Of a DNA stretch of 50,541 nucleotides, positions 6,903 through 42,539 are shown piece by piece. The notes beneath the pieces are model-generated. The model did not search any database. It saw nothing but the letters and a program-made list of their open reading frames with translations, and was not told where the DNA came from. Source of the DNA: a virus. Position 1 is the first letter of the stretch, and each line of letters opens with the position of its first letter. The stretch covers positions 1 through 50,541 of IMG/VR virus record IMGVR_UViG_3300033153_004262; one strand, 5' to 3'. The position numbers and the translations under genes are program-made.

Positions 6903-6915
6903 GGAGGGATATGTA

Positions 6916-7800: not shown

Positions 7801-7812
7801 ATTCAACTAACT

Positions 7813-7838
7813 GAGCGGGAGACAAGATTCTCCTGCTC
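7813..7838 (+). other. Intergenic RNA hairpin before the next head gene
   Basis: Bases 7813-7822 (GAGCGGGAGA) can pair with 7829-7838 (TCTCCTGCTC): a 10-bp stem with one G-U pair and a 6-base loop. No U tract follows; instead the ribosome binding site of the next gene (GGAGG, 7839-7843) begins at the stem base. It could stabilise the upstream capsid-gene message or partly attenuate the next gene. Confidence 0.55.
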
Positions 7839-7850
7839 GGAGGCTCAATT

Positions 7851-8477
7851 ATGGCAGAAGAAAAGAAACAAGAAATAGAACCGAGAATAATAGAAGTCAA
7901 GGCGGGGGATAAACCGCCGATAGGAAAGTTTTATTTTGGTGATATAATAGAACCTTATGGTCTTAGACCTGTGTATTTTAGGTATTCAAGATTTTCTACT
8001 GTTAGGATTGATGCTAGTGGTAATCCTGCTACGGTACTTGAAGATAGGTTGAATCATTTTGAACGTATAGTAAAGTCTGATAATGATTTGTTATCATTAC
8101 TATATTACCATAAGCAGCCACCTTATAGGGTACCTGATAATTGTTTGGTTCCGGTAGCGCAATGGAATATAACTGCTGATATGCTGGATTCGGTAGACGT
8201 GGTTCCATATTGGAAACCATTTCCGGTAGTTATAGATGGTACAAGGCCAAGAATAAAACCTGATGCAAGAGGCAAAAATACTTCTTTGATGAACGCATTT
8301 CATTGGGTTATTCTCAATACTGGTTATGTTCCTAATATTAGCCCGACTGGTTCTAGTGATGATGGTCATTGGGTTATGAGCGATCCTGCTGTAGGGTCTT
8401 GGATTAATCAACAATTAGATAATGAGCTACATGCAGGTATAAATACAATAGCATATACGAGGCGGAGGGTGGGCTAA
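7851..8477 (+). CDS. Hypothetical structural protein
   Basis: ATG 7851 follows GGAGG at 7839-7843. The 208-residue product has a Lys/Glu-rich N-terminus, then a mixed region rich in Tyr, Trp and Pro (YWKPFPVVIDGTRPRIKP). Its stop shares a base with the next start (TAATG). It lies among head genes, so a head or connector role is likely, but I do not recognise the family. Confidence 0.55.
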   Translation: MAEEKKQEIEPRIIEVKAGDKPPIGKFYFGDIIEPYGLRPVYFRYSRFSTVRIDASGNPATVLEDRLNHFERIVKSDNDLLSLLYYHKQPPYRVPDNCLVPVAQWNITADMLDSVDVVPYWKPFPVVIDGTRPRIKPDARGKNTSLMNAFHWVILNTGYVPNISPTGSSDDGHWVMSDPAVGSWINQQLDNELHAGINTIAYTRRRVG

Positions 8478-8845
8478 TGGCCTTAACTACCGTAGGAAAA
8501 AGAAGAATAGCATCGCATTTAGCTAACGCTACACCGCTAAAAGAGCTTATTACTCATATCGCATTGGGTACAGACGATACACCCGAATCTTCATCTGACG
8601 AGGCTCTTGGTGCAGAAATTTATCGAGTGGTTTTAGCGGAAGTTACTCAAGATAATAAAGGCTGTATAGGGGACGCTACTATTGCGGGTAGCGATATAGG
8701 GGACTCATCTTATACCATTAAGGAGATTGGGTTTTTAGATGCGTCAAGTGGGGGCAACTTGATATGGAGACACGTTCTGGACACAGCGATAACTCTGGAC
8801 GGTGGAACGCAGGAGCATATAATTGGGGAAGTAATGTTTCCGTAG
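8477..8845 (+). CDS. Short tail-fibre-like (baseplate/collar) protein
   Basis: The 122-residue product resembles the N-terminal attachment domain of phage tail-collar fibres. It starts with ALTTVGKRRIASHLAN, continues with ITHIALGTDDT, and later has IKEIGFLDASSGGNLIWRHV followed by a DTAITLDGGT strand. Fibre families use this domain to dock on the tail; here the protein stops with no receptor-binding part. A good Shine-Dalgarno (GGCGGAGGG) precedes it. Its last 82 bases overlap the only plausible start of the downstream glycosyltransferase in another frame. Confidence 0.65.
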   Translation: MALTTVGKRRIASHLANATPLKELITHIALGTDDTPESSSDEALGAEIYRVVLAEVTQDNKGCIGDATIAGSDIGDSSYTIKEIGFLDASSGGNLIWRHVLDTAITLDGGTQEHIIGEVMFP

Positions 8846-10761
8846 CTGATACCGTAATCTATGAAAGAGTACAACGCGGTCTCGGCGATGCCATAATGCT
8901 ACGACCGGCTATAATCGCATCCATAAAGGAGCGACCAAATAAACAGCACATAATACACACTTTAGCTAATCCTGCGCCGTTATATAGTGATATTGATAAC
9001 TTAGAAATAGTGGTGATAGATGGCGATAATTATATAGAGTGTTTAGAAAATTCCAGTAAGTTGTATCATGAATATGATAATTGTATTGTATATAAGCTTT
9101 CTAGTCCTTGTTATGATTATGAGGTAGAGAACAGTCCGAACATCTATAGGTCACGTCAGGAGATGTTTTGTGCTGTTATAGGAGTTAAGTTCAGCATTGA
9201 TAATTACAATGTCAAATTCACGCAGCAGGAGCGTGATACAGCTAGAAAGTTTATAAAGAGTGGTTATAAAAATATTGGTATACATTTACGGGCTATGCAA
9301 GATTATAGGAGTTATAGGTATACAACAAAGGCTGTTAAGCTTGTAGATGATAACATAAAGTATCGAAGTTTTGTAGAACATATAGCTAGACGTTTTAGCG
9401 GATATGTTTATATATTCGACCTTAATTATAAATATGATGGCAAGCTTGACAATATCGTTAATGTAAATTTTGGTGATGTAAGGCTAGTATGGGCTATAAT
9501 GTCTTTGATGGATATAGGTATAGGTGTAGATTCGTTTGGTATTCACGCAATGGGATCCGTTGGCGTTCCTGTATATGGTATATTTGGAGCTACAGACCCC
9601 AAATGCAGGTTGTTATATAAAACTAGTTATACATCTCCATTATTTGATAAATGCAGTAGGCAGCATTGTTGGTATCAACCATGTAAATATGTTCCATGTA
9701 TCAATGCTAGGTACCCATCATTCTATTGGAACGATATAGAATCAAAGATGGGTCATTATTTATATGATAAACCAATAGGTAAAAGCGAACCGGTATATAA
9801 GTCATTATTAAAAACTAAAAGTTCTAATATTGCTATTGTATTATTGGAGGGTATGGGTGGTACGATTACCATTACTGACCACGCTAAGAAAGTCTATGAG
9901 TTGACTGGTAAGAAAGTAGATATAGTTGTTAGGGGCTATGAGTCATTATTTATAGATAATCCACATATAGATCAAGTTATCAATGTTGGTAATGCTATAC
10001 CGGTAGACAAAGGGCTTAAATCTATTGCGGATAGTTATGATATAGCGGCTTTAATAAAAACCGGTATTGGTAAATGGTCGAACAATAATATAATAAAGCA
10101 GGACTTTACTGAGTGGGAAGATAGGTATAATTATCATCCATTAAAACTGAATGAATTAGAGAAATACAATCTTAATCTTGTTCAGATGGTAGACATGACA
10201 CTTGGGTTACCTTATGATACTATTGATACTGAGATATATCATACTAAAAAGTGGGAACCCAAACTACCTTATCAGTATATACTGGTTGCTAATGGGGTAG
10301 ATACACTTCATGGCGGTAAACTCCAAACGAAAAGTTGGCCTTATAAAAAGTGGTGTGATTTTGTTGCTAATGCAAATTATCCAGTGGTTCAAGTGGGTAC
10401 TAAGTTCGATAAGTCTATTCGTGGAGTTAAGCAAAACCTGCTTGGAAAAACAACTATCCCCGAACTACTTAATATAATACAAAGGGCTAAAGCTGTTGTA
10501 TGTATCGAAGGCGGTATAATGCACCTTGCATATGCTTTACATCATAGCAATGTTTTTGTACTAAGAGGCCCCACTTGCGGTAGTTTCTATGGGTATCCCG
10601 GTATGACAATGATAGACGCTAAGGTTGATTGCGCTGGCTGTTATTGGTCAACGATGAGTTGGTCAAGTATTTGCCCACAGAATGTTGATGCGGAATGTAT
10701 GAAACGAATTGACCCATTTAATGTTGCAGAGTTAGTAAATATATCTATGGGTTTGTTATAG
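8764..10761 (+). CDS. Double-domain GT9 (heptosyltransferase-like) glycosyltransferase
   Basis: The protein carries two GT-B domains of glycosyltransferase family 9. Domain 1 starts with the phosphate-loop motif RGLGDAIMLRPAI (residues 38-50) and ends near GIGVDSFGIHAMGSVGVPVYGIFG, the usual acceptor of the nucleotide-sugar diphosphate. Domain 2 starts with LLEGMGGTITITDHA (from about residue 358) and ends with CIEGGIMHLAYAL followed by VFVLRGPT. Both parts keep the GT9 landmarks, so two successive transfers by one polypeptide are possible. Cys-rich tails follow each domain (CSRQHCWYQPC and CAGCYWSTMSWSSIC), perhaps zinc-binding. The start is uncertain: ATG 8764 lies 82 bases inside the fibre gene, its first ~27 residues have no family counterpart, and no in-frame start lies between it and the GLGDA motif. 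Confidence 0.8.
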   Translation: METRSGHSDNSGRWNAGAYNWGSNVSVADTVIYERVQRGLGDAIMLRPAIIASIKERPNKQHIIHTLANPAPLYSDIDNLEIVVIDGDNYIECLENSSKLYHEYDNCIVYKLSSPCYDYEVENSPNIYRSRQEMFCAVIGVKFSIDNYNVKFTQQERDTARKFIKSGYKNIGIHLRAMQDYRSYRYTTKAVKLVDDNIKYRSFVEHIARRFSGYVYIFDLNYKYDGKLDNIVNVNFGDVRLVWAIMSLMDIGIGVDSFGIHAMGSVGVPVYGIFGATDPKCRLLYKTSYTSPLFDKCSRQHCWYQPCKYVPCINARYPSFYWNDIESKMGHYLYDKPIGKSEPVYKSLLKTKSSNIAIVLLEGMGGTITITDHAKKVYELTGKKVDIVVRGYESLFIDNPHIDQVINVGNAIPVDKGLKSIADSYDIAALIKTGIGKWSNNNIIKQDFTEWEDRYNYHPLKLNELEKYNLNLVQMVDMTLGLPYDTIDTEIYHTKKWEPKLPYQYILVANGVDTLHGGKLQTKSWPYKKWCDFVANANYPVVQVGTKFDKSIRGVKQNLLGKTTIPELLNIIQRAKAVVCIEGGIMHLAYALHHSNVFVLRGPTCGSFYGYPGMTMIDAKVDCAGCYWSTMSWSSICPQNVDAECMKRIDPFNVAELVNISMGLL

Positions 10762-10775
10762 GGGGTGTACGATAA

Positions 10776-11840
10776 ATGCGGTTACGAAAGAAAAAACAGG
10801 ATATCACTTTATCAATGCATGTTATCACTCAGGATAATTATGAGGGTATGCTTAGGCTACTAGGCCATACTGTTGGTTATTTTGACAACATTAGAGTATG
10901 CGAGGCTGATGATAAGTGCAAGTCATGGGAACTTTATAATAAATTTGGTTGTGATGTGGTGTATAGTGCATGGCAAGACGATATGTCTATACAGCATAAC
11001 GAATTGCTAGACAAGGCCAAAGAGGGCGAATGGATATTTATTATGGATGATGATGAATGTCCAACGCCACAATTACTCAAGAAGCTTCGGTGTTATGCTG
11101 AGGCTAGTAATAACGGTGAGAGTTACAAGTCGTGTAAAATTGCTTCTATTGTTGATATAGATGGTGTTATGAACCATACTATTAGAGAATTTATCAAAAA
11201 TGTTAAAAATAATGATGAGCAATTTCGTAAAGAGTGTTTTTTTCTATATGATGGTTTGATAGTATATACCGGTACTAGCCATTATGAATTGCTATGTGAT
11301 GATAAACGAGAATCTAGTGTATGGAATAAGTTTGATATTTCAGAACCATATATTCATTACAAGATACCAGAGGATTATGCTAGGTGTGATATACAACAAG
11401 CATTTATTGATCCGTCAATGCAAGATATTAGCGATGATGACGCCATAAAATTTAGGCTTTTATGGGATAATGCTGGTGTAAAAAGTAGTCGTGATATGTT
11501 AGATTATTTGAATAATGGCGATATATCAAAAGACCTTAAAGATTTCTTTGTTTTGCACAGGTTCCCGGCAAAAAGTAAAATATTTAGGTATTTTCAGTAT
11601 TACTTTTTATTTCATCATCCATTAGAACTAAATGATTATAGTAATATAATTGATAATATTGAAATTGATGCTTGTGTTTTACACCATTTGAGAGAACTTG
11701 GTGGCCACAAATCTTATGCTAGGTGGATGACGTTAAATGGTGTAGATGGAGAATGGTTACCGATAGGTCATTTAGATATACATGAAGATTTGAAGGCTAT
11801 GTTAAATGTTTCTTATGTTATGTTGCGGGTGGAAGAATAA
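10776..11840 (+). CDS. GT2-type (GT-A) glycosyltransferase
   Basis: The 354-residue product opens with a strand-helix typical of GT-A enzymes (LSMHVITQDNYEGMLRLL, FDNIRVCEADD). It has the metal-binding acidic cluster WIFIMDDDECPTPQL at ~87-101, equal to the DXD motif. Known relatives transfer sugars from nucleotide donors to glycans or proteins in the cytoplasm. A strong site (GGGGGTGT) precedes ATG 10776. It follows the double GT9 gene closely and belongs to the same sugar module. Acceptor and donor are unknown. Confidence 0.75.
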   Translation: MRLRKKKQDITLSMHVITQDNYEGMLRLLGHTVGYFDNIRVCEADDKCKSWELYNKFGCDVVYSAWQDDMSIQHNELLDKAKEGEWIFIMDDDECPTPQLLKKLRCYAEASNNGESYKSCKIASIVDIDGVMNHTIREFIKNVKNNDEQFRKECFFLYDGLIVYTGTSHYELLCDDKRESSVWNKFDISEPYIHYKIPEDYARCDIQQAFIDPSMQDISDDDAIKFRLLWDNAGVKSSRDMLDYLNNGDISKDLKDFFVLHRFPAKSKIFRYFQYYFLFHHPLELNDYSNIIDNIEIDACVLHHLRELGGHKSYARWMTLNGVDGEWLPIGHLDIHEDLKAMLNVSYVMLRVEE

Positions 11841-11865
11841 AAACAAGTACATGGGGGCTGAGAAA

Positions 11866-12609
11866 ATGACTAAAGCTGGTATAATAAATAAATTTCCTAC
11901 TGATTATAATATAAATAAAAAAGAGTGGCCTTATAACGCTATACATTATTACGGGTATACAACGAATACTAGGCGGTTTGCAAGCCCAATACCAAGTTCA
12001 GAAGAAGATTTTGATGTAACATTTGATGAGTTTCGTGAATGGATGAAGCATACTGGTGGTACTGGTTATTCGACTGAGGTTTCTAAGTTATTTTTTGATT
12101 GTGCTAAAGATGGTAATGGGGAAGGCTATATCGTAGAAACTGGTATGTGGGAAGGCTTTAGTGCTTCGTGGTTTGCAGCAGGTAGTAAAACTGCAGGTAG
12201 GGAATTAGTTATATCTGTAGATAATTATTTCTGTAGGGATATATGGCCTTTTGTTCATAACGATTTGATACATTATGGTAAATGTGATAGCAGGTTGTTT
12301 TTTCTTGGTGTATTTGATTGGGTAAGAAGGCTTGGTTTTCATTCGGCAGAAGCAGCAGAGATGTTGAATTCGCCGGTAAGGATTTTATATGTAGACGATG
12401 ATCATGGTTATGAGGCGTGTTCTGCTAGTATATTTGCATGGACACCATTGCTTATATCTGGTGGAACAATTTTTGTTGATGATTACCACCCAGAAATTGA
12501 AAATGATACAGTAGTAAAAGCGGTTAATGAACATATTAGGGATTCTAAGCTATACAAAGATTTTTATATTATTGATGATTCCCATGTGGTAATGGCTACA
12601 AAAATTTAG
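11866..12609 (+). CDS. Class I SAM-dependent methyltransferase (CmcI/Methyltransf_24-like)
   Basis: ATG 11866 is chosen because GGGGG (11853-11857) lies at the right distance; the longer frame from 11806 overlaps the previous gene and adds unrelated residues. The 247-residue product has a Rossmann start YIVETGMWEGFSASWFAAGS (motif I region), VISVDNY (motif II acidic residue), and ILYVDDDHGYEACSASIFAW then GGTIFVDDYHPE, typical of small-molecule or sugar O-methyltransferases such as CmcI and TylF relatives. Inferred role: methylation of a sugar in the glycan made by neighbouring enzymes. Confidence 0.75.
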   Translation: MTKAGIINKFPTDYNINKKEWPYNAIHYYGYTTNTRRFASPIPSSEEDFDVTFDEFREWMKHTGGTGYSTEVSKLFFDCAKDGNGEGYIVETGMWEGFSASWFAAGSKTAGRELVISVDNYFCRDIWPFVHNDLIHYGKCDSRLFFLGVFDWVRRLGFHSAEAAEMLNSPVRILYVDDDHGYEACSASIFAWTPLLISGGTIFVDDYHPEIENDTVVKAVNEHIRDSKLYKDFYIIDDSHVVMATKI

Positions 12610-12641
12610 ATAATTATAACTTAGTGGGAGTTGGTGTATAA

Positions 12642-13682
12642 ATGAAAGTTTTAATATGCGTAGAATATTGTGGTGATATATCAACTCTCACTGAAAGAAA
12701 AATCGTAGCCAATATTGGTGATTCATTAAAGTATCATGGTATAGATGTTGATTTTATACATCCATCTCATGTTTCTGATTTGTCAATGTATGATGCCTGT
12801 ATATGGGACTGTGGTAATACACCACCGTTATATTATAATAGAAAAGGTTATTATAATACTATCAATCTTTTGTTTGCCAATGGAGGCGCACAAGCAGGCT
12901 TAGATATTGATGGAGTTATATATAGTAGAAAATTTGCTTATCGTGGTGCTATAATAAGACATAACGAACAGAAAATAGATTATAGGTTTATACATTTATT
13001 TCCTCCAGCCATGAAATTACTTTATGAGCCAGTAAAAGAATTTGGTAAATATATATTGATAGCAGGAACATTTCATCCCGATAGGGGGCTTCGTATAGGA
13101 TTATTGGCTGACATAATGTCAAAATCTAAAATGCCTATTAAAATTGTTATGAAACAGTGTGCAGAAAAGCGACCAGATGGAACATTTAAGTTTTTACTTC
13201 AAGATAGTTTTCATGATGTAAATGCTAATCTTTATAATGATATGTTTAACCTTTATAGAGATTATGCCGATAAAGAAGGTGTTGTTATTGAAGAATATAG
13301 CGCTTTGCCATCCATAGATTTTCAACGCTTGATGAGATATGCCGGTATTTATATACATACACCTGATTGTTTTCCGGGTAGTGTAGTTTGTTATGAGGCC
13401 ATGTTATACGGTATCCCAATGATTGCCTCCAATTTGGATAGATTTAGTTTCCTAGATTCTAATGGTAATAATTATTTTCATGTGAATAGAGATTTAGATT
13501 TCAGCATGGCTAGGAAGGTAACTGAGCATATAGATTATATATGCACAAATTGTGATGAAGTTAAAGCCAAATCATTACAATGGGTAAATGATAATACTAA
13601 AATGTATTCCTATGAATATGCCGGTAAAGATTTAATAGACTTTATAGAAGGGATTATAGCAAATAAAAATGCGGTATCCTAA
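12642..13682 (+). CDS. GT4-like (GT-B) glycosyltransferase
   Basis: The 346-residue product has a GT-B layout. A poorly conserved N-terminal acceptor domain comes first, then YILIAGTFHPDRGLRIGLLADIM at ~150-172, which begins the donor domain. The signature PDCFPGSVVCYEAMLYGIPMIASNLDRF follows at ~245-272, where the E of the CYEAM segment matches the EX7E-type donor-binding motif of family 4. Base composition is strikingly AT-rich compared with the structural genes. It overlaps the next gene by 14 bases. Donor sugar unknown. Confidence 0.75.
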   Translation: MKVLICVEYCGDISTLTERKIVANIGDSLKYHGIDVDFIHPSHVSDLSMYDACIWDCGNTPPLYYNRKGYYNTINLLFANGGAQAGLDIDGVIYSRKFAYRGAIIRHNEQKIDYRFIHLFPPAMKLLYEPVKEFGKYILIAGTFHPDRGLRIGLLADIMSKSKMPIKIVMKQCAEKRPDGTFKFLLQDSFHDVNANLYNDMFNLYRDYADKEGVVIEEYSALPSIDFQRLMRYAGIYIHTPDCFPGSVVCYEAMLYGIPMIASNLDRFSFLDSNGNNYFHVNRDLDFSMARKVTEHIDYICTNCDEVKAKSLQWVNDNTKMYSYEYAGKDLIDFIEGIIANKNAVS

Positions 13683-14292
13683 TGTACATATAGGGAAAAA
13701 TGTAATTATAGAAGATAATGTTGTTATAGGTTATCCACCTAATGGCAAGGCCGTTGGAGAATGTAAAACAATTATTGGTGATAATTGTCATTTACGCTCT
13801 GGTGCCATAATATATGCTGGTAATATTATTGGTGATGGTTTTGTTACTGGTCATTATGCGCTTGTTCGTGAGTTTCATACGATAGGTAACGATGTGAAAA
13901 TTGGTTCTTACGCTGACCTTGAAGGTTATTCTGAAATAGGTAATGGTGTAAGGATTCATAGTGGTGTTCAGGTTGGTGATTATACAACAATTAAAGATGA
14001 CGTTTGGATTGGTCCCAGAACTGTATTGACAAATGTATGGCATCCTAAATGCGAAAAAGCTAAAGATTGTATGCGTGGATGTGTGATACATAATGGGGCT
14101 ATTATAGGTGCTAGGGTTGTAGTAATGCCTAGGGTATGTATAGGTCAGTATTCTGTTATTGGTGCTGGGTCTGTTGTTGTTAAAGATGTCGATGCAAATA
14201 TTGTGGTAGTTGGGAACCCTGCACGATATATTAAAGATGTCAATCAACTTACCTGTCCATATAGCTTGGTGGAGCGACCTTACAATGTGTAA
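13669..14292 (+). CDS. Left-handed beta-helix (hexapeptide repeat) acyltransferase
   Basis: Almost the whole 207-residue chain consists of hexapeptide rungs ([IV]-G-x-x-[VCSA]-x), for example VHIGKNVIIEDNVVIG, CIGQYSVIGAGSVVVKDV and the C-terminal VVVGNPARYI typical of sugar N- or O-acetyltransferases of the WlbB/FdtC type. His residues in the loop GCVIHNG and in VLTNVWHP may include the catalytic one. These enzymes act as trimers and transfer acetyl from acetyl-CoA to amino sugars. It overlaps the genes on both sides and is followed by an oxidoreductase and an aminotransferase, which supports an amino-sugar pathway. Confidence 0.85.
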   Translation: MRYPNVHIGKNVIIEDNVVIGYPPNGKAVGECKTIIGDNCHLRSGAIIYAGNIIGDGFVTGHYALVREFHTIGNDVKIGSYADLEGYSEIGNGVRIHSGVQVGDYTTIKDDVWIGPRTVLTNVWHPKCEKAKDCMRGCVIHNGAIIGARVVVMPRVCIGQYSVIGAGSVVVKDVDANIVVVGNPARYIKDVNQLTCPYSLVERPYNV

Positions 14293-15115
14293 AATTGGTG
14301 TTATCGGAACAGGAATAATGGGGGTTAGTATAAGTTCTTGTATGTCTAATGCCGGGATGGAAGTAAGGTTGTTAACAAGAGGTTGCACCGAAATTGCTAA
14401 TAAAAAGTTATTTAATAGATTGTTGTCAGCCGAAAAGAAAAATAAAATAACTAAAGATGACACCTCAAAAATATTAAACAATGTTTATATTACTAACAAT
14501 ATAAACGATTTGGCTAATGTTAGCTTGGTAATTGAGTGCGTGGTTGAAGATTTTGATACTAAGAAAAGTTTATTTTATAAATTAAATGCCATGTGTGGTG
14601 AAGATACAATATTCTGCACCAATACATCTTCGTTATCGGTATTGCAACTGGCGTTATCGAGTGGCCGTAAACGTTCTTTTGTAGGTGTGCATTTCCTGAA
14701 CCCAGCTGATGTCATTAAGTTTGTTGAAATAGTAAGAACAAAATTTGTATTACAAGGCGTAATAGATAAAGTTATTGATGTTATTGATTGTGTAGGTTAT
14801 AATTATATTGTAGTTAATGATACACCAGGTTTTATAGTAAATGCTTTATTGTTCACTTTAATAAATACAGCAGCCAATATGTTAGATACCGTATCTATAA
14901 TGGTGATTGATAGTGCGATTGTAAACGGCCTTAGTCACCCAGAGAATCCGTTACGGTTAGCTGATAGAATAGGACTAGATGTTTGTTATACTATATTGAC
15001 TAATCTTTATAATAGAACTGGTAATATGGTATACAAACCTGCTGTTACAATAAAAAAATTAGTCGATAGCGGTAATTATGGAAAGAAAACAGGTAGGGGG
15101 TTTTATCAATGGTGA
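14285..15115 (+). CDS. 3-hydroxyacyl-CoA dehydrogenase-type oxidoreductase
   Basis: The 276-residue protein has the full length and order of 3-hydroxybutyryl-CoA dehydrogenases. It has an NAD-binding GVIGTGIMG at 5-13, SLVIECVVED (~80-89), CTNTSSLSV (111-119, catalytic-site Ser 115), GVHFLNP (134-140, catalytic His136), KFVEIV with Glu148, NDTPGFIVN with Asn186, and the C-terminal HPENPLRLADRIGLDV and KKTGRGFY. All four active-site positions are kept. ATG 14285 is chosen because the Rossmann strand starts there; it overlaps the acyltransferase stop by 8 bases. Such an enzyme in a phage, between a sugar acyltransferase and an aminotransferase, is unexpected. The family also includes L-gulonate 3-dehydrogenase, so a sugar-acid substrate is possible. 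Confidence 0.85.
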   Translation: MCKIGVIGTGIMGVSISSCMSNAGMEVRLLTRGCTEIANKKLFNRLLSAEKKNKITKDDTSKILNNVYITNNINDLANVSLVIECVVEDFDTKKSLFYKLNAMCGEDTIFCTNTSSLSVLQLALSSGRKRSFVGVHFLNPADVIKFVEIVRTKFVLQGVIDKVIDVIDCVGYNYIVVNDTPGFIVNALLFTLINTAANMLDTVSIMVIDSAIVNGLSHPENPLRLADRIGLDVCYTILTNLYNRTGNMVYKPAVTIKKLVDSGNYGKKTGRGFYQW

Positions 15116-16224
15116 TAGTACCTTTAGTAGACCTTAAATCTCAATACGATACTATAAAATTTAGTATAGATAACGCAATACAAACCGTTATAAATAAAAG
15201 TGCTTTTACTTCTGGTGAGGAAACCGATAAACTAGAAAAAGAATTTGCTGTTATTTGTGGAACAAGATATGCGGTAAGTGTTGCTTCCGGTACAGCGGCG
15301 ATACATCTAGCTTTACAATCTGCGAATAAAAAAATATATACGTTAGACAAAATGATAGTTTCGCCTTCTACATTTACAGCAAGTGTTGAGCCAGCAGTTT
15401 TGCTTGGTATTGAGCCGATTTTTATAGATATAGATAAAGATACATATTGCCTTGATCCAAATAAAGTAGAAGATAAGATTAAGCAAAAACGCGATATTAG
15501 GTACATTATGGTTGTTCACCAATATGGACATCCTGCTGATATGGATGCCTTTATTGATATTGGTACTAGGTATAATATTACTATTATTGAAGATTGCAGC
15601 CATGCTCATGGTGCTGTATACAATAAAAAAAATGTTGGTAGTTTTGGCAAGGCCGGGTGTTTTAGTTTTATGCCAGCAAAGATTATAGGTGGTTATGGTG
15701 ATGCTGGTATTATAGTTACTGATGATGATATTGTTGCTGAACGTATTAGAAAACTTAAGTCGCATGGCCGTAGCGGTAAACATATTCATAATGTTGTTGG
15801 TTATAATTTTAGGATGGATAATTTACAAGCCGCTATTATTAGATGCAAATTGGAATATCTTAGTAGGTGGACTGACAGGCGTAGAGAAATAGCTAAAATG
15901 TATACAGAAGGCTTCGCTAATTTAACAAATTTGATAACTCCTTTTGTTGATTCTAAGGTAAGTCATGTTTATTATTTGTATGTAGTACAAGTCGATAACA
16001 GGGATAATGTTGCAGAAAACCTTAAAACTAAAGGTATTCAAACCGGACTACATTACCCAATACCATTACATATGCAAAATGCTTATGAGGAGTTCACCTT
16101 TAGATGCGAATCTTTACCAAATTCAGAACGACTTGCAGTTAATTGCATTTCATTACCAATTTATCCAGAGATGACAAACGAGCAAGTTAATTATGTTATA
16201 GATATTATAGGAAAAATAATGTAA
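15109..16224 (+). CDS. DegT/DnrJ/EryC1-family PLP-dependent sugar aminotransferase
   Basis: The 371-residue product is a complete family member. It begins IVPLVDLKSQYDTIK, has ASGTAAIHLALQ (59-70), FTASVEPAVLLGIEPIFID, IIEDCSHAHGA (159-169, Asp162 contacts the PLP pyridine nitrogen) and CFSFMPAKIIGGYGDAG with Lys191 as the Schiff-base lysine. It ends with the usual LPIYPEMTNEQVNYVIDII. These enzymes aminate keto-sugar nucleotides using glutamate. It overlaps the dehydrogenase gene by 7 bases, which suggests co-translation and a shared pathway: oxidation to a keto sugar, amination, then acylation. Confidence 0.9.
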   Translation: MVIVPLVDLKSQYDTIKFSIDNAIQTVINKSAFTSGEETDKLEKEFAVICGTRYAVSVASGTAAIHLALQSANKKIYTLDKMIVSPSTFTASVEPAVLLGIEPIFIDIDKDTYCLDPNKVEDKIKQKRDIRYIMVVHQYGHPADMDAFIDIGTRYNITIIEDCSHAHGAVYNKKNVGSFGKAGCFSFMPAKIIGGYGDAGIIVTDDDIVAERIRKLKSHGRSGKHIHNVVGYNFRMDNLQAAIIRCKLEYLSRWTDRRREIAKMYTEGFANLTNLITPFVDSKVSHVYYLYVVQVDNRDNVAENLKTKGIQTGLHYPIPLHMQNAYEEFTFRCESLPNSERLAVNCISLPIYPEMTNEQVNYVIDIIGKIM

Positions 16225-16805
16225 TGTATACAAAACCTGATAAGGAAAGAGATTGTAATTATTATGATAATATGTATTGTAAATTTGGTGGACATAGTAC
16301 AATACCTGATGAGGATCATAATTATTATTATAATTGGATAACAGTTATTAAAGAAATAAATAAAAATGAGTTTGTTGCAGATTTTGGTTGTGGCTCAGGC
16401 CAGTTTGCTAATTTGTTATTGCAGTTTGGTTATCATTTTTCTTATGGTATAGATTTTAGTAATAATGCTATAAAGATTGCTAAAAAATTAAACCATAATG
16501 ATAAGTTTTATACGGGTAATCTGCTTGATAAAGAAGTATTTGGATTTGGGCAATACGATGTAGCCGTTTTATTAGAAACCTTAGAGCACATAACTAATGA
16601 TCTTGAGGTTTTATCATATATACCATCACGCACTAAGGTTATATTTAGTGTGCCTACTTTTGATAGTGATGGTCATGTTAGATATTTTAATAACGTGGAT
16701 GAGGTGATAAATAGATATAGTGAATTAGTAGAAATAAAAAAGATTATAATAATAAATCCTGGTGCGAATGTATCATTTTATATTGCGGTTGGAAAAAGAA
16801 ACTAG
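16224..16805 (+). CDS. Class I SAM-dependent methyltransferase
   Basis: The 193-residue product has motif I EFVADFGCGSGQFANLL (~50-66), motif II YGIDFSNNAIKIAKKL and motif IV YDVAVLLETLEHI, as in Methyltransf_11/23 enzymes (ubiE-like fold). Its start shares a base with the aminotransferase stop (TAATG). It is very AT-rich like the rest of the module. Probable substrate: a sugar or lipid-linked sugar made by the neighbours; the fold alone does not decide it. Confidence 0.8.
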   Translation: MYTKPDKERDCNYYDNMYCKFGGHSTIPDEDHNYYYNWITVIKEINKNEFVADFGCGSGQFANLLLQFGYHFSYGIDFSNNAIKIAKKLNHNDKFYTGNLLDKEVFGFGQYDVAVLLETLEHITNDLEVLSYIPSRTKVIFSVPTFDSDGHVRYFNNVDEVINRYSELVEIKKIIIINPGANVSFYIAVGKRN

Positions 16806-16825
16806 TATAATTAGGGGGTTATATA

Positions 16826-17839
16826 ATGGCTAAGACATTAGGGGTATATACTTATGTTGTGCGCGGTGTAGAATACGACATGCCGTTTGTAGAAATGATT
16901 CGTTCTGTAGTGCCGATAGCGGATGAGATTGTTATACTAACAGACAGTACCTTTGAAGATGGTACTATAAAAGAACTTAGGCAACTAGAAGAAGAAATAC
17001 CACGGCTTAAAGTAATAATAGAGAAATTCGATTGGTGTAATCCCGGTATAGATGGAATAAGTAAAGCAACGGCTAGGTCAGCCTGTACTTCTGACATACT
17101 AATGCAGATGGATGCCGATGAGATTGTTAGGGAGAAAGATTATGGTAAAATAGAGTTCCTAAAAAATAACTGGCCTGATGATACAATAATGATAAGTACA
17201 GGTGTTGTTAATTGGTTCAACGGGTACTTTCTGAACTTGGATGCCGCCGGGTGGGTAAAGGAAAGACTTTCACTTAACAGTGAAAATATTACACATGGCA
17301 TACCTAGACAATTAAGAATACCTGTGGATGGTACAGACTATTATAAAGTGCAGCCGTTCAAATCTGATGGAGCTGGCTATATAACCAAAGATGGCCGACC
17401 AATATATGCCAGTATGGCATTGTGTGGTAGAGACCAAAAGAAAATATTTAGGGATATAAACAATCCTCAGTACATATATATTCATCATTGTTCGTATACT
17501 TCGTTGCCAAGAAAATGGGAGATGAAGAACGCATGGCATTATATGTGGGGTATACTTAATGGTAAGTATACTTGTCCTGAAGATTATACAATTAACGAAG
17601 ATAACGAGCCGGTTAATTTCTTTGCTCCTAAAGATACTAAACCACCGGCTTCTTATATCCAGCCTATAACTGACGAAATGCAAAAGAAGCGTTTGGTCAA
17701 ATGCAAGAATGTTAAATACCCGAAAGCAGTACAGGGATGGGTAGACAAGCAGAGAATATATGTACCGAAGGATATTAGAAAATTTAGATTTAGTGAGTTC
17801 CAACAGAACATGAAAGCAGAAGTTTTTAAGATGGGGTAA
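16826..17839 (+). CDS. GT2-type (GT-A) glycosyltransferase
   Basis: The 337-residue product has GT-A features: VVPIADEIVILTDSTFEDGT (~27-46), KATARSACTSDILMQMDADEIV at ~79-100 with the DXD-like MDADE, and a later IYIHHCSYTSLPRKWE. GGGGG sits seven bases before ATG 16826. Its base composition is closer to the structural genes than the preceding AT-rich stretch. As last gene of the module, directly before the connector genes, it may act on virion proteins, but this is inference. Confidence 0.75.
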   Translation: MAKTLGVYTYVVRGVEYDMPFVEMIRSVVPIADEIVILTDSTFEDGTIKELRQLEEEIPRLKVIIEKFDWCNPGIDGISKATARSACTSDILMQMDADEIVREKDYGKIEFLKNNWPDDTIMISTGVVNWFNGYFLNLDAAGWVKERLSLNSENITHGIPRQLRIPVDGTDYYKVQPFKSDGAGYITKDGRPIYASMALCGRDQKKIFRDINNPQYIYIHHCSYTSLPRKWEMKNAWHYMWGILNGKYTCPEDYTINEDNEPVNFFAPKDTKPPASYIQPITDEMQKKRLVKCKNVKYPKAVQGWVDKQRIYVPKDIRKFRFSEFQQNMKAEVFKMG

Positions 17840-27842: not shown

Positions 27843-30800
27843 CTAAAAATCCCCTTTCTCATCATCACTCAATATTTCTTTCATACTTAACGATGGGTCT
27901 ACAATAGATATACCAACTAGTTTCTCAAAGAACATCACCCCTAATTCATTCTTGTAGTATGAGCCACGAATAGTATCTTCTATGAATTTATTACCAGCCA
28001 GCCAGCTAAGGCAATCACGCACCTCCTTTATATCATATAAATACATCGATGAAATTTGTTTAGGGCTAGTATATGGATTCTTGACAATCCATTCGGCTAT
28101 ATTCTTGCCCATTTCTTCAAACTTATTTGTATAATTTGTTATCCTATCAGCCATTTGCTCATCGTCCAGCATATAGCCAGCATAGGTGGCACTATACTGT
28201 TTATAGTTTAACGACCTATCGCTATAATTATTATCTATAAAATTGTAGGCATACTCCACATGGTCTGGCGTAACTACTAATTTATTATCAAGGCTTCTAT
28301 TATTCATTCTAGCAGCCACTGCCACGGATACCCTAGCAAGCTTGAGTCTAAAATCGCCGGGTTCTATTAAAGGTATCTTAGCAATGTAGTTTCTGCACAT
28401 ATAGTTAGCCACTTTAAGTATGGTATCTTCCGTCTCATTTGATATTATAATGTCATCAGGGCGTAGATTCCATACCCACATAAGCTGGTTATGACATACC
28501 TGAGCCGAATACTTATCTTCTACAGGCGGTATATCGTTAATGTTTTCATTTATAACCTCATCTTCTACTTGGTTTGACACTACACCTATGGCATAGGTAA
28601 ACCGTCTTATATTTTCTCTACGGTCTATCAAATCCTGTATAGCCAACACAGGAAAGTTATAACTGCCCATGCTTTTATGCTCTACTGGGTTAGTCAACCA
28701 AATAATTCTTGTCTCACACATAGCCTGACCAAACACAGTCTTGGCTACCGTCACTGTCCCCGATGATCTAACATCCTTTAACTCGTTGAAGCCACCGTTC
28801 TCTACCAGATTTGATAACTCGTCTATACATACTAATCTACCGGTATATCTAGGCAATACACCCCATACTATATATGGTGTGTCGCCTTCTTTCATATGTA
28901 CTGTCCATAACAAACCAGTTCTACCGGCAGACTCTCCACTTACCTTCATACCAAGATCGTAGTATTCCATAAACTTCTCTACTATAGTAGACTTACCTTG
29001 ACCGGTATCGCCTATGACAAGCAAGTCTATCCAGCCATTGACCAACTCTCTTTGAAAGTTAAATTTTCTTACACTGTGATACGCTAAGTCAACAGCTTTA
29101 ACCAATTCATTTCGGCCCCATATCCTTATATGATTATACGATAAGGCAGAAGCTATATCCTCATGCTTGGCTTCTATTGATTGGTTCTTGTCTGGACGAA
29201 ATATTTTAGCTTCTTCTTTCATTTCGGCTGTTTCATTAAAGTTGGATAATGAGTCGGATAGCAACTCGGCTTTATCCATAACCAATCTTAGCTTTCGATT
29301 ATTCGCATTGTAATGCAGATAACCAGAAAATTTGTATGATTTATTTGGTTCAAGCCCTTTGCCTAAGAAGTAAATGCTTTGCTGCGTATACTTATCACCT
29401 GTTTCAAAATTATTACTTACCATTGGCGATAAAAATATTATCTCACAGTTGGCTTCAACAACTTTGTAGAACCAATGCGAGCATGTACGTCGATTGGGTA
29501 GTCCAAGACAAGCACCTACCAATCCTGTCAAGTCCATACGTGATGGTTCTATGAATGACAATATACCTTTTCTTTTAGCGGATATATCTATAGTCAGACC
29601 ATCGGTTTGACCATACAGCGGGCAACCAGAACATTTGGCTGTATCTGTTGGGCTACAATTAGCCGTAATCTGTTTAGGATAAGCTATGGTATCATCTCTG
29701 CGACCAACAGCCTCCGCTTGTATAGATAACCTAGTATTCAAATACTGTACGTCTAAAGCATCAAATAAACCAACCTCTGTTTCTGTATCTAATGACTTTT
29801 GACATTCTTCGGTACAGTAATCTTCCATACCTGCAATTTGCTTAATACCAGCACAAGAAAAACCATATTGATCGCTGTTATACACAGTATTGCAAACATA
29901 ACCAACCTGTGAATGTAACGAGTTCAAATCTAGGTGACCATCATTTGTAATACTGTGTGTCAACGATGGTGGTATATTAACACACCAACTTCTTAGGTAA
30001 CCTGTAGTTTCAATCTTATTGGAACCTTGTGACTTGAAGAAAGCAGCCAGTCTAAACATTACCATATTAACTGTGCCTAGTTCAAGCACTCCTTTATCTA
30101 ATAGCGCGGCTATACAGGGAGGCGGATCGTCAAAAATCTTAATGTCATCTTTGCTCCATGTTTTATTATCAGAGCTGGCTTTATGTTCTTTTACCGCCGC
30201 TTGATAAAGCTTATTGGGTAATAGGATTTCTTGACCTTCATAGTCATCAAAGTGACTAACTTGTTCTGTTTTGGCTAGGTCTTGTATTTCACCTACAGTT
30301 AATGATGCCACCTCATCAATTCCAAGTGGTATTTTATAAAGGCCGGACTTACCATGAACGGTATTCTCTACGCGCCACATTCTGCGCTTGCTGTATATAA
30401 CCATATCCATAGACTTCAAGCCCAGAACACCAGCTATCTTATTTGCCATTGTATGCCAGATTTTATTTAGATGGTCGCTTTTCTCGGCACCAAATATTTC
30501 ATGAGGTATAACAATATGAAAACCCCTGTTGCCAGTATACCATACCTTGATATATGCTCTATCTATTTTCAGGTTCTCGGTATAATATTTTATAGCGTGC
30601 TGGGTATCGTTTAGTGCGTTCTCTAATGTCATACCTTCTTCCTCTTTGGCATCAAAGTCGCTATAAAAATCAGATATAAACTCTTCGCTATCTGATTTTT
30701 CTTTAGCAAAAAACGTCTGTATGGTGGCGAAAGTATGAAGCGGCTGTTCTTCTTTAATGATTTTAACAGCATCGTCTACCTTGTTTGCTGGTACCCTGAA

Positions 30801-30854
30801 CCATTCACCCCTACCTCCATCCTTATCAACATAGGTGACATCTCTGTATTGCAT
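27843..30854 (-). CDS. Primase-helicase: AEP primase, PriL-like region and MCM-like AAA+ helicase in one chain
   Basis: The 1003-residue product has three parts. Residues ~1-180 are an archaeo-eukaryotic primase: catalytic YSDFD (Asp66, Asp68), TGNRGFHIVI (107-116) and a third motif with Asp150 and HGKSGLYKIP (167-176). Residues ~245-411 start with PPPCIAALL, contain TGYLRSWCV, and carry clustered cysteines (321, 334, 347, 351; then 400, 408, 411), like the PriL C-terminal domain plus a zinc ribbon. Residues ~575-760 are an MCM-type AAA+ core: RIWGRNELVKAVDLA, Walker A GDTGQGKS (615-622), VSGESAGRTGLLWTV, Walker B LVCIDE (674-679), sensor TNP (721-723), and DLIDRRENIRRF like the MCM arginine finger. 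A winged helix follows near 905-960. It would unwind and prime phage DNA. No separate polymerase gene is seen. Confidence 0.8.
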   Translation of the reverse strand: MQYRDVTYVDKDGGRGEWFRVPANKVDDAVKIIKEEQPLHTFATIQTFFAKEKSDSEEFISDFYSDFDAKEEEGMTLENALNDTQHAIKYYTENLKIDRAYIKVWYTGNRGFHIVIPHEIFGAEKSDHLNKIWHTMANKIAGVLGLKSMDMVIYSKRRMWRVENTVHGKSGLYKIPLGIDEVASLTVGEIQDLAKTEQVSHFDDYEGQEILLPNKLYQAAVKEHKASSDNKTWSKDDIKIFDDPPPCIAALLDKGVLELGTVNMVMFRLAAFFKSQGSNKIETTGYLRSWCVNIPPSLTHSITNDGHLDLNSLHSQVGYVCNTVYNSDQYGFSCAGIKQIAGMEDYCTEECQKSLDTETEVGLFDALDVQYLNTRLSIQAEAVGRRDDTIAYPKQITANCSPTDTAKCSGCPLYGQTDGLTIDISAKRKGILSFIEPSRMDLTGLVGACLGLPNRRTCSHWFYKVVEANCEIIFLSPMVSNNFETGDKYTQQSIYFLGKGLEPNKSYKFSGYLHYNANNRKLRLVMDKAELLSDSLSNFNETAEMKEEAKIFRPDKNQSIEAKHEDIASALSYNHIRIWGRNELVKAVDLAYHSVRKFNFQRELVNGWIDLLVIGDTGQGKSTIVEKFMEYYDLGMKVSGESAGRTGLLWTVHMKEGDTPYIVWGVLPRYTGRLVCIDELSNLVENGGFNELKDVRSSGTVTVAKTVFGQAMCETRIIWLTNPVEHKSMGSYNFPVLAIQDLIDRRENIRRFTYAIGVVSNQVEDEVINENINDIPPVEDKYSAQVCHNQLMWVWNLRPDDIIISNETEDTILKVANYMCRNYIAKIPLIEPGDFRLKLARVSVAVAARMNNRSLDNKLVVTPDHVEYAYNFIDNNYSDRSLNYKQYSATYAGYMLDDEQMADRITNYTNKFEEMGKNIAEWIVKNPYTSPKQISSMYLYDIKEVRDCLSWLAGNKFIEDTIRGSYYKNELGVMFFEKLVGISIVDPSLSMKEILSDDEKGDF

Positions 30855-31354: not shown

Positions 31355-32215
31355 TTATACAAATAATTTCAGTTGATTGGTACTTTTTTCTAGTACATCA
31401 TTCCACCATAACACTTCGACCCTCATGTGATCTGGATTGTTCTTTAACGCCCCCTTCCCTTTTAGTCCTGTAGAATCAGTGGTAGGTGTAGCCCTACACG
31501 CCACCTCTGTATCTACATAATGCCAATCAAATTCTTGCTGTGCCGCATCATAAGTAGGGCAATGATACCCACTCAGTAAGAACATCCCTTTAATATTCTG
31601 TAGCAGTAATAGCAATTCTCTGTGATTATTAAAGTCAACCATATATCTAGTACCGCTTCTCGTATCGTGATGATACGGTGGGTCTACATAGAAAAAGGTT
31701 TTGCTACTATCGTATTTTTTGATACAATCTAAAACATCTAGGTTTTCTATTTGCGCATCCTTTAGCCTATCAATTATTGCAGGTAATCTATCTACAGCAG
31801 ATAGCCATGCACCTACTGTATCTTTTTGCTTTCCGTAACTCCAACCACCCTTAGCATCACCAGACATAGACTGTCTACATCTAATAAAAAATAGTCTAGC
31901 TTTTTCTATGTCAGTCATGCTGGAGGTCTTAAAGATGGCCTTAGCTTCTTTATGCTCATGCCTAGAGTACGGCGTCAGGTATAACTGTTCCATAAAGCTA
32001 TACGGCTGATCCCTCAGCACTTTATAGAAGGCAACCAGTATAGCGTACTTATCATTTAATACCTCTACTTCTGATTTGCCTTTAGCAAAGAAGTACGAAG
32101 CACCACCAGCAAATGGCTCAACATAAGTTAAATACTTATCAAGTGGTGGGCTATGCTTTGCTAATAGCCCCGTTAAGTGCCCTTTGCCTCCAAACCACAG
32201 TATCGGAGATTCCAT
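31355..32215 (-). CDS. Dam-type DNA adenine N6-methyltransferase
   Basis: The 286-residue product has the D12 class order. LWFGGKG (6-12) is motif X, YVEPFAGGAS (31-40) is motif I for SAM binding, VLND (52-55) motif II, and FFYVDPPYH (175-183) catalytic motif IV (DPPY). Length fits Dam-like enzymes. Probable role: methylating phage DNA to evade restriction or to time replication and packaging. No partner nuclease is encoded nearby, so it is an orphan methylase. A strong AAGGGAGA site precedes it. Confidence 0.9.
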   Translation of the reverse strand: MESPILWFGGKGHLTGLLAKHSPPLDKYLTYVEPFAGGASYFFAKGKSEVEVLNDKYAILVAFYKVLRDQPYSFMEQLYLTPYSRHEHKEAKAIFKTSSMTDIEKARLFFIRCRQSMSGDAKGGWSYGKQKDTVGAWLSAVDRLPAIIDRLKDAQIENLDVLDCIKKYDSSKTFFYVDPPYHHDTRSGTRYMVDFNNHRELLLLLQNIKGMFLLSGYHCPTYDAAQQEFDWHYVDTEVACRATPTTDSTGLKGKGALKNNPDHMRVEVLWWNDVLEKSTNQLKLFV

Positions 32216-33332: not shown

Positions 33333-34208
33333 CTAGAAGGTATCGTCACCGCTATCAGCTACGGTTGTACCATCAGTATCATAGTCAATATCTTTCTTCA
33401 TCTCTAGGTTAAGGAACTCTGCCATTATAGCAGTTATTTCCTTCACCTTCTGACCCTGATACGTTACGGGTTTAGCAAGACTGGCAAGCTCTACCATATT
33501 TACTTCCGCCTTTGGTGTAAACATAGCCACACTATACTGAATCTTCTTGCCTTTAGAGATAGACTCTAAAGTAATCTCAGTAACCACATTACTAAAGTGC
33601 TTGTTAGGTAATGATGCCCTATACTCTTTCCAGTTGCGGATGCTGGACGGTGGCAATGATAGTACACCGGTTACCTGACTGGCCGGTATCCATATTAGCA
33701 GCCTACGCATCTCTTTGCACATCTTACCATCGCCCTTGCTGCCAAACTGATTGTAAGGGCAAGAGATACAGCTAAACTCGTTGTCGATAACGGGTCGCAC
33801 CATATCTTTGAGCACCTGTGGGGTATCACCATCGACCGGTTTGATTAAAGCTCCTGATGCCCCATTGTTATTCCTGCTAGAGCAAATAGGGCGGCTCCCA
33901 GTCCATGCGTCCATTTGGTCTTGTTCTTCTTGGGTACCATCGCTCCATAGGGAACGTGCTATTTCCACCGACAAGATTACACCCGCTATAGTAGAGAATG
34001 TCTCGTTGGTTGATGGAGTAGTAAACTCAGCGGTTTCTTTTACTATCTTAAATGTTACCAATCCGGCTTCATACTGATCGTCGGCGGCAGCGTTTAAGAT
34101 AGCCATTATAGCCGTACCAGACTCAGCCTGTTCAGCTAAGTCAGTAGAGACCTCTTCTACTACCTCAATATCGGTTATTGCTAGTTCTTCTTTCTTTTCT
34201 TTAACCAT
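33333..34208 (-). CDS. Putative single-stranded DNA-binding protein
   Basis: The 291-residue product has a beta-rich core with a Cys cluster (FSCISCPYNQFG, KMCKEM) that could bind zinc. It ends in an acidic, disordered tail closing with an aromatic residue (DTDGTTVADSGDDTF), the layout by which SSB proteins recruit partners. It lies between the SNF2 helicase and the primase-helicase, consistent with a replication role. The start shares a base with the upstream stop (TAATG). Assignment is inference from architecture; no OB-fold signature is diagnostic. Confidence 0.5.
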   Translation of the reverse strand: MVKEKKEELAITDIEVVEEVSTDLAEQAESGTAIMAILNAAADDQYEAGLVTFKIVKETAEFTTPSTNETFSTIAGVILSVEIARSLWSDGTQEEQDQMDAWTGSRPICSSRNNNGASGALIKPVDGDTPQVLKDMVRPVIDNEFSCISCPYNQFGSKGDGKMCKEMRRLLIWIPASQVTGVLSLPPSSIRNWKEYRASLPNKHFSNVVTEITLESISKGKKIQYSVAMFTPKAEVNMVELASLAKPVTYQGQKVKEITAIMAEFLNLEMKKDIDYDTDGTTVADSGDDTF

Positions 34209-39286: not shown

Positions 39287-39371
39287 GATTTGCACCACCT
39301 TGAAATAGTACTTTTTGTACTAAACTGTAAAACTGAGACTCTTGTGCTATTGTTATGCTATCTGTCAAAAC

Positions 39372-39387
39372 TAGAGCGGAAGCTCTA
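39372..39387. repeat. TAGAGC-GGAA-GCTCTA hairpin, copy 1
   Basis: A 6-bp stem with a GGAA (GNRA) loop on the plus strand, within a ~25-base block that recurs inverted at 42473-42488. It lies in a gene-free gap. Confidence 0.6.
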
Positions 39388-39453
39388 CGTCGTTGGACTA
39401 TGTCCACGTCGTGGAATTTTAGCGATAAATTCCAGAAACGACAAAAAGCCGAT

Positions 39454-41533: not shown

Positions 41534-41764
41534 TTAGGAATGTTTATGTGCATCATAGTTTCCAGTAAACTGAAGCACACGCTGGAAAGCAGAATCACAT
41601 GATGTTCCAGATAAGCAGTCTGACAAATCGTATGTGATAAACTGATCTGTTTCCTTTTCATATCCATAAAAGGACGCATGTTTGTTATCACATACACCCA
41701 CAGCGATCAGTTGATCATCGGGGCCGTTGTCTTTGTAGGTCAGTGTCAATGTAGCATATTTCAT
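41534..41764 (-). CDS. Small early protein, MKYATLTLT family, copy 1 (76 residues)
   Basis: The product starts MKYATLTLTYKDNG and continues with a beta-strand VGVCDN that matches its neighbour's MGVCNE, so the two are diverged tandem duplicates. It is acidic with four Cys in the second half region (SDCLSGTSCDS). The leader AAAGGGAGTACAAAGCAA is repeated before all three genes of this unit. First-transcribed small acidic proteins often act on host enzymes, but this is inference. Confidence 0.6.
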   Translation of the reverse strand: MKYATLTLTYKDNGPDDQLIAVGVCDNKHASFYGYEKETDQFITYDLSDCLSGTSCDSAFQRVLQFTGNYDAHKHS

Positions 41765-41792
41765 TTGCTTTGTACTCCCTTTAGTTGTTTAG

Positions 41793-42008
41793 TTACACAA
41801 GGAAATGATCTAGTTTATATATTTCTGTAAAGTTTAGCACGTTGCTGTTGTCTGATGATTCGACTTTGCATGCAACTATATTATAGTATATTATACACGT
41901 AGACTCATCAGATCCAATAAATCTTGTCTGTGCTTCATTGCACACGCCCATAGCTGCAACTTGCACGTTTCCATCTATGTCCGTCAATGTTAGTGTTGCA
42001 TATTTCAT
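41793..42008 (-). CDS. Small early protein, MKYATLTLT family, copy 2 (71 residues)
   Basis: Paralogue of the gene at 41534: the first nine residues and the following VxxxGVCN strand are shared, and the rest has diverged (ACKVESSDNSNVLNFTEIYK versus SFQ-like end). Same repeated leader with AAAGGGAG. Acidic and beta-rich, no membrane segment. Function unknown. Confidence 0.6.
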   Translation of the reverse strand: MKYATLTLTDIDGNVQVAAMGVCNEAQTRFIGSDESTCIIYYNIVACKVESSDNSNVLNFTEIYKLDHFLV

Positions 42009-42033
42009 TTGCTTTGCACTCCCTTTAGTTGTG

Positions 42034-42237
42034 CTATTTTCCTAATACTAATTCCCTAAGTGTATACAGAATAACGTGAGATTTGAGACCATCATAAATG
42101 ACTGACTTTGCATTAATGTTCTTGTGTAATGCAATAGCATGATCAAGGTCAAGATCGACGATTTCTTCATATGTTGACTTGTCGACACACATTTTATAAC
42201 TGTCTGTGTTGGGATGATCAAATACGACTGTGGTCAT
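42034..42237 (-). CDS. Small early protein, first gene of the leftward unit (67 residues)
   Basis: It lies directly behind the early promoter and shares the repeated leader with the two following genes, though its protein (TTVVFDHPNTDSYKMC...) is unrelated to theirs. It is acidic with helices (YEEIVDLDLDHAIALHKNI). Probably among the first proteins made after infection. Not recognised. Confidence 0.6.
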   Translation of the reverse strand: MTTVVFDHPNTDSYKMCVDKSTYEEIVDLDLDHAIALHKNINAKSVIYDGLKSHVILYTLRELVLGK

Positions 42238-42428: not shown

Positions 42429-42472
42429 CCAACTGTCCAAATCCATCTTCTTGTCGCTCCGCGCCTTCGACA

Positions 42473-42488
42473 TAGAGCTTCCGCTCTA
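42473..42488. repeat. TAGAGC-GGAA-GCTCTA hairpin, copy 2 (inverted)
   Basis: Reverse complement of the hairpin at 39372-39387, with matching flanks (TCAA-x-ACTAGAGCGG on the minus strand). Lies in the 557-base gap between the early and late units. Confidence 0.6.
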
Positions 42489-42539
42489 GTCTTGACACTC
42501 CGTGCCTTCAAAAATTCAACATCTTGACTCCTTGCTCAC

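Follow-up and report, generated by a model that had tools for sequence, protein, structure and literature searches.

Which polymerase copies the genome of a phage that encodes a primase and an MCM-type helicase in a single polypeptide, with no DNA polymerase gene in sight? This question is raised by IMG/VR virus record IMGVR_UViG_3300033153_004262, whose 50,541 nucleotides were analyzed over their full length and are referred to below as the window. Two issues that are usually mixed were separated, namely which primase drives the MCM-type helicase and which polymerase follows. In the reading that we favor, to which we assign a probability of roughly 0.55, a single protein, the fusion, initiates replication, unwinds DNA and lays primers, and the host replicase takes care of elongation.

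Domain layout of the fusion

The open reading frame at issue (Table 1) encodes a single chain of 1003 amino acids, which matches phrog_18685 over residues 2-913 and, at its N-terminus, a primase family as well. An inspection of the letters without database searches (the sequence-only reading) had proposed that this one chain combines AEP motifs, a PriL-like region opening with PPC, an MCM core and a winged helix, a layout now borne out by motifs, conservation, profiles and modeling.

Table 1. Features of the window and of related loci (locus-numbered where so indicated)
Feature	Position	Strand	Basis or remark
AEP-PriL-MCM fusion	27843..30854	-	ORF; Pfam MCM 37.3 bits; PHROG 18685; relatives in phages and IMG/VR
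AEP (PriS-like), ~residues 1-200 (D66xD68, H113, D150)	30255..30854	-	Profile, Foldseek, conservation
PriL-like four-cysteine helical domain, ~residues 240-355 (C247, C334, C347, C351)	29790..30137	-	
MCM N-domain-like part, ~residues 360-540 (C400, C408, C411, C458; OB-like strands)	29235..29777	-	
MCM-type AAA+ core	28515..29177	-	Pfam MCM, PDB MCM match, conservation
C-terminal winged helix, ~residues 898-970	27945..28163	-	Secondary structure of the model; Foldseek
Acidic C-terminal tail, terminal Phe (SDDEKGDF)	27846..27887	-	Tips in 7/7 clade members; F1003
Dam-like N6-adenine methyltransferase, end QLKLFV	31355..32215	-	PF02086 65.0 bits
SSB-like protein, 291 aa, tip ...DSGDDTF	33333..34208	-	Ortholog in six other clade contigs and G002
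SNF2-like helicase, 620 aa	35099..36961	-	PF00176 50.5 bits, PF00271 38.7 bits
Orphan, 323 aa	39523-40494		No Pfam or PHROG family
MCM-type half with DnaG-type CHC2/TOPRIM primase	L003:4023-6926, L007:3981-6866, L004:4026-6980, L005:3996-7013		Also in IMG/VR relatives

The AEP pattern hDhD, sxH, hD is satisfied by D66xD68, GFH113 and D150, accompanied by R158/R161. Conservation was assessed over 53 non-identical AEP-MCM fusions, several of them near-copies, in all of which D68, H113, D150, R158 and R161 are invariant, D66 being kept in 52. By profile, the AEP part matches Sulfolobus PriS at E 2.8e-4, and for the N-terminal part, modeled with AF2 at a mean pLDDT of 72, the best Foldseek PDB matches are RepB', PriS and Prim-PolC, with E-values of 2e-4 to 8e-4 and modest TM-scores. 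Judged by motifs and predicted fold, the fusion is a PriS-like member of the AEP superfamily. The proposed profile check held in part: the window protein itself passes for MCM, while for AEP and PriL the Pfam cut-offs are passed by relatives. Against PF01896 (DNA_primase_S) the window protein scores 10.5 bits, under the cut-off of 26.8, and the vB_BboS-125 homologue 40.8, above it, this cut-off being a detection threshold and not a defining biological feature. PF04104 (DNA_primase_lrg, cut-off 22.4) is not reported for the window protein by the Pfam scan; vB_BboS-125 reaches 19.0 bits and one related fusion, L014, exceeds the cut-off with 27.4, in support of the PriL reading. The PriL C-terminal domain from the PDB also aligns in register with the fusion by profile, if weakly (E 0.05-0.2), and the PPC cysteine C247 is, like C334, C347 and C351, invariant in 53/53 fusions. 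PriCT-1 and PriCT-2, a feature of the PrimPol-PV1 supergroup, have no Pfam match in the window protein.

For the C-terminal half, the window protein exceeds the cut-off of Pfam PF00493 (MCM; 37.3 bits against 23.3), and a profile built from this half finds MCM chains exclusively among its best 60 PDB matches, the best at E 4e-16. The AAA+ domain thus matches MCM, as first claimed; an SF3/D5 identity, set beforehand as a refuting condition, was considered and set aside, with no SF3/D5 Pfam match and the same 60 MCM chains on top. The core comprises Walker A at 615-622, the Walker B pair D678 and E679, sensor N722 and an SRFD-like arginine finger, RRF, at 750-752, with K621, D678, E679, N722 and R751 invariant in every one of the 53 fusions, as are the zinc-type cysteines C400, C408, C411 and C458. 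MCM identity here rests on sequence, because the AAA core came out poorly (mean pLDDT 55) when the C-terminal half was modeled with AF2; the model includes a beta-rich segment in the MCM N-part. The predicted winged helix matches winged-helix regulators in Foldseek at target TM-scores of up to 0.66. Since catalytic, cysteine, Walker, sensor and arginine-finger positions are conserved across the 53 fusions, the protein is very probably active in both priming and unwinding.

One MCM chassis, two primases

Single-protein queries of viral and genome contigs gave nothing usable, and relatives were recovered by alignment-based searches, which yielded 80 IMG/VR loci via the MCM side and 80 via the AEP side. 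Within the phage collection, vB_BboS-125 alone encodes a relative that matches over the full length, at 26% identity. BSP7, Youna2, Wollypog, Krampus and API480 encode proteins that match the fusion only from residue ~330-370 onward, and their N-terminal halves carry a CHC2 zinc finger and/or TOPRIM according to Pfam. A TOPRIM motif pattern matched 37 of 69 non-AEP rows, some of which are partial, the TOPRIM call being based on Pfam for the named phages and on reading of the alignment. On a tree of the MCM part, the AEP forms make up one side of a branch (SH-aLRT 98) when the long-branch row L085 is left out; L085, a partial TOPRIM-type row, lands within the AEP group, and with L085 kept in the data, a constraint holding the AEP rows as one clade was not rejected (p-AU 0.084). 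One MCM chassis thus carries two unrelated primases, and because the AEP forms group together on this tree, whose root is uncertain, the primase half was swapped, apparently once. Exchange of this kind has a precedent in D5 helicases, which often bear either DnaG- or AEP-type domains (PMC7581432). A limited literature search returned no paper describing TOPRIM-MCM fusions. Throughout, the MCM half is constant and is paired either with AEP plus PriL-like or with a DnaG-type TOPRIM primase; PolA or a DnaE-like enzyme serves as the polymerase, or none is present.

Several relatives deserve separate mention. In the closest one (L135, genome G058), the region 6001-9302 encodes AEP in an ORF of its own (207 aa); an ORF of 111 aa comes next and then PriL-MCM (796 aa), so that the chain is naturally split between AEP and PriL. 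Near position 1300 of L146 (G064), AEP and PriL-MCM lie in different frames, with a break near window-protein residue 240 that may reflect either a genuine frameshift or faulty assembly. Five genomic contigs, from Fermentibacteria, Planctomycetes and other MAGs, hold mostly weak relatives and do not identify the host. L197, a contig binned to a Candidatus Fermentibacteria MAG, contains a relative of the fusion with 26% identity over residues 18-878 and is a possible prophage.

Polymerase genes and the route to elongation

The window clusters with G047, G048, G054, G058, G064 and G067 in a clade of seven contigs (tree support 100). Six-frame profile searches found neither PolA, PolC nor PolB in the window, with controls that gave signal, and the same search found none of the three in the six other contigs. 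The refuting condition set beforehand, a profile hit to a DNA polymerase in this genome, thus did not occur for families A, B and C. Among relatives the picture differs: PolA or DnaE-like polymerases are present, by six-frame profiles, in 7/7 annotated phages with MCM-primase fusions, in 37 of the 46 IMG/VR relatives of a first set and in 17 of the 27 of a second, AEP-based set. The polymerase-less clade is new, most other relatives carrying PolA or a DnaE-like enzyme, and since the same MCM chassis is accompanied by PolA in some of them and by a DnaE-like polymerase in others, the polymerase partner is exchangeable. In the further relative G074, neither PolA nor PolB, the two families searched there, was found. 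G010, a 100-kb AEP-MCM contig without a detected polymerase, contains at 52597-53982 (-) (L098:12597-13982) a beta-clamp-like ORF that scores 24.4 bits against DNA_pol3_beta_2, just below the cut-off of 27.

Contig truncation was considered as a general cause of the missing polymerase and rejected, because G047 and G058, also devoid of one, are complete genomes by their exact end repeats of 123 and 127 bases. The deeper AEP-MCM relative G002, again without polymerase, has its start repeated at position 59943 of 60056 bases, an end repeat of ~114 bases as inferred from length, of which 58 were checked. The window itself looks nearly complete, as the ORFs at its ends, tail-spike-like frames at 1-1236 and 48101-50541 (+), are frame-compatible and would join with 3n+1 bases missing, which suggests a circularly permuted genome.

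A polymerase too unusual or too divergent for the profiles would offer a different way out. PF03175 (DNA_pol_B_2) matched no control genome, so that its silence carries no information, and many clade genes lack a family, the 323-aa orphan included. This orphan, however, is unmatched in the six other clade contigs, the remaining early genes of the window and of the two complete relatives G047 and G058 do not exceed ~330 aa, and of the early-strand genes only those for the SNF2-like helicase, SSB-like protein and fusion were found in every clade contig, which makes an overlooked enzyme highly improbable. The same three genes occur in conserved order, as would be expected of core replication proteins, and this speaks against a second proposal, that the fusion acts in repair or in the restart of replication and the genome is copied wholly by the host replisome. 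According to PMC4538821, BcMCM has been proposed to take part in fork restart, and we nonetheless consider such a role for the fusion improbable.

The other same-strand genes of more than 250 aa are as the sequence-only reading described them, with products of 620 aa (SNF2-like), 286 aa (Dam-like), 291 aa (SSB-like) and 323 aa (orphan). Orthologs of the SNF2-like helicase occur across the rest of the clade as well as in G002. No Pfam family exceeds its cut-off for the 291-aa protein, whose SSB role we infer. The methyltransferase ends in a beta-clamp-binding-like pentapeptide, QLKLF, and in G058 the orthologous protein carries QMKLF close to the end. An inverted repeat of 30 nt, 93% complementary, with arms at 39363-39392 and 42468-42497, ~3 kb apart, brackets the start of the early region. 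At 41534-42237 (-) lie three short ORFs (76, 71 and 67 aa), two of them similar in sequence; in front of each lies a 59-nt stretch, alike among the three and with the common end CTCCCTTTAGTTGT (repeat family D1). Among the structural genes, 8764-17839 (+) is a stretch of lower G+C encoding a glycosyltransferase, a methyltransferase, a DegT-type aminotransferase and a 3-hydroxyacyl-CoA dehydrogenase, perhaps for surface-sugar modification.

The fusion and the SSB-like protein both end in an acidic tip with terminal Phe/Leu. Such tips occur on 7/7 clade fusions versus 21/393 genes overall in these genomes, some of them on unrelated proteins, and F1003 is invariant in alignment A6. In T7, the acidic tail of the primase-helicase is the dock for T7 polymerase (PMC12230644, PMC5997990). 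The exchangeable polymerase partner and the acidic Phe/Leu tips are the grounds on which we favor hand-over to the host replicase. Opening of the origin or fork and subsequent priming are the most likely tasks of the fusion itself, because BcMCM is reported, in literature citing the original studies, to unwind, prime and polymerize. Binding to the phage origin would fall to the winged helix and MCM N-domain; the MCM ring would unwind DNA 3' to 5' and AEP, together with the PriL-like domain, would lay primers that are probably rich in dNTPs, the last two activities as reported for BcMCM. The acidic Phe tails of the fusion and the SSB-like protein may then dock, in T7-like fashion, on polymerase or clamp machinery. 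That the clamp-like motif sits on the methyltransferase and not on the fusion weighs against recruitment of the host replicase.

The sequence-only reading had named two options, extension of primers by the AEP part itself (PrimPol) and recruitment of the host replicase. A host polymerase may also be unneeded, given the intact AEP active site and the polymerase activity ascribed to BcMCM in PMC4538821. The AEP would then be the replicase, with a PrimPol-helicase that primes and copies the whole genome, processivity from the MCM ring and help from the SSB-like protein. The catalytic positions kept in 52-53 of the 53 fusions fit this idea, as do the primase and polymerase activities with dNTP preference that PMC4538821 relates for BcMCM and the absence of family A, B and C polymerases from the clade; moreover, NrS-1 PrimPol is described as the replicative polymerase of its phage, boosted by the helicase and SSB of that phage (PMC8718748). 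NrSPol is, however, described as far weaker than classical polymerases (PMC8718748), and sister phages with the same fusion retain PolA close downstream, the AEP there being apparently insufficient, so that we regard replication by the AEP as possible but doubtful. We give still less credence to the joint claim that a tailed-phage lineage of ~47-50 kb copies its genome by an AEP-PriL-MCM replicase without any A, B or C polymerase of phage or host, and would have arisen as such among relatives carrying PolA or DnaE-like enzymes. The polymerase-less clade allows a direct test of the AEP-MCM enzyme as phage replicase against recruitment of the host replicase, and its PriS-PriL-MCM chain is a compact model of eukaryotic-type primase/MCM coupling, for which cells use separate proteins.

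Comparison with known systems

The window protein belongs with BcMCM among the AEP-MCM fusions of phages, and such fusions are not new. The surprise that the sequence-only reading saw in this combination disappears in view of BcMCM from a Bacillus cereus prophage, already described in 2005 (McGeoch and Bell 2005; Samuels 2009; Sanchez-Berrondo 2012, as cited in PMC4538821 and PMC5862659). As related in PMC4538821, BcMCM is a 3' to 5' helicase, a primase and a DNA polymerase with dNTP preference, and like the window protein it is a phage-encoded single chain in which an N-terminal AEP precedes a C-terminal MCM helicase. Compared by description, the two differ in that the partner polymerase is missing across the whole window clade. 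In the later literature citing the original reports we found no description of a PriL-like four-cysteine domain for BcMCM; the four PriL-like cysteines are shown here in all 53 compared fusions.

Closest in build are vB_BboS-125 gp45 (NC_048735) and related prophages, which share full length, domain order and catalytic residues with the fusion and differ in having PolA nearby (two genes downstream of gp45 in vB_BboS-125) and a C-terminal tip that is mostly ...DDDY. The TOPRIM-MCM proteins of Bacillus phage BSP7, Microbacterium phage Krampus, Paenibacillus phage API480 and others are homologous to fusion residues ~360-960 (Zn/OB and MCM), whereas their N-terminal half is CHC2 and/or TOPRIM instead of AEP plus PriL-like. 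NrS-1 PrimPol, the described replicative polymerase, likewise joins AEP and helicase in one chain; in the published descriptions by which it was compared, its helicase is called unique, not MCM, and a four-cysteine PriL-like domain is not reported. PolpTN2 of plasmid pTN2 also unites PriS-like and PriL-like parts in one chain, but belongs to an archaeal plasmid, lacks a helicase and has Gln for His in motif II (PMC5862659). The primases of Thermus phage P23-45 and Moorella phage MTATph1 consist of AEP followed by PPC...C...C...C and are homologous to fusion residues ~20-350, and differ in being stand-alone proteins that adjoin a DnaB-type helicase. In functional logic, the fusion would resemble the alpha protein of phage P4, in which origin binding is united with helicase and primase functions and which relies on host Pol III.
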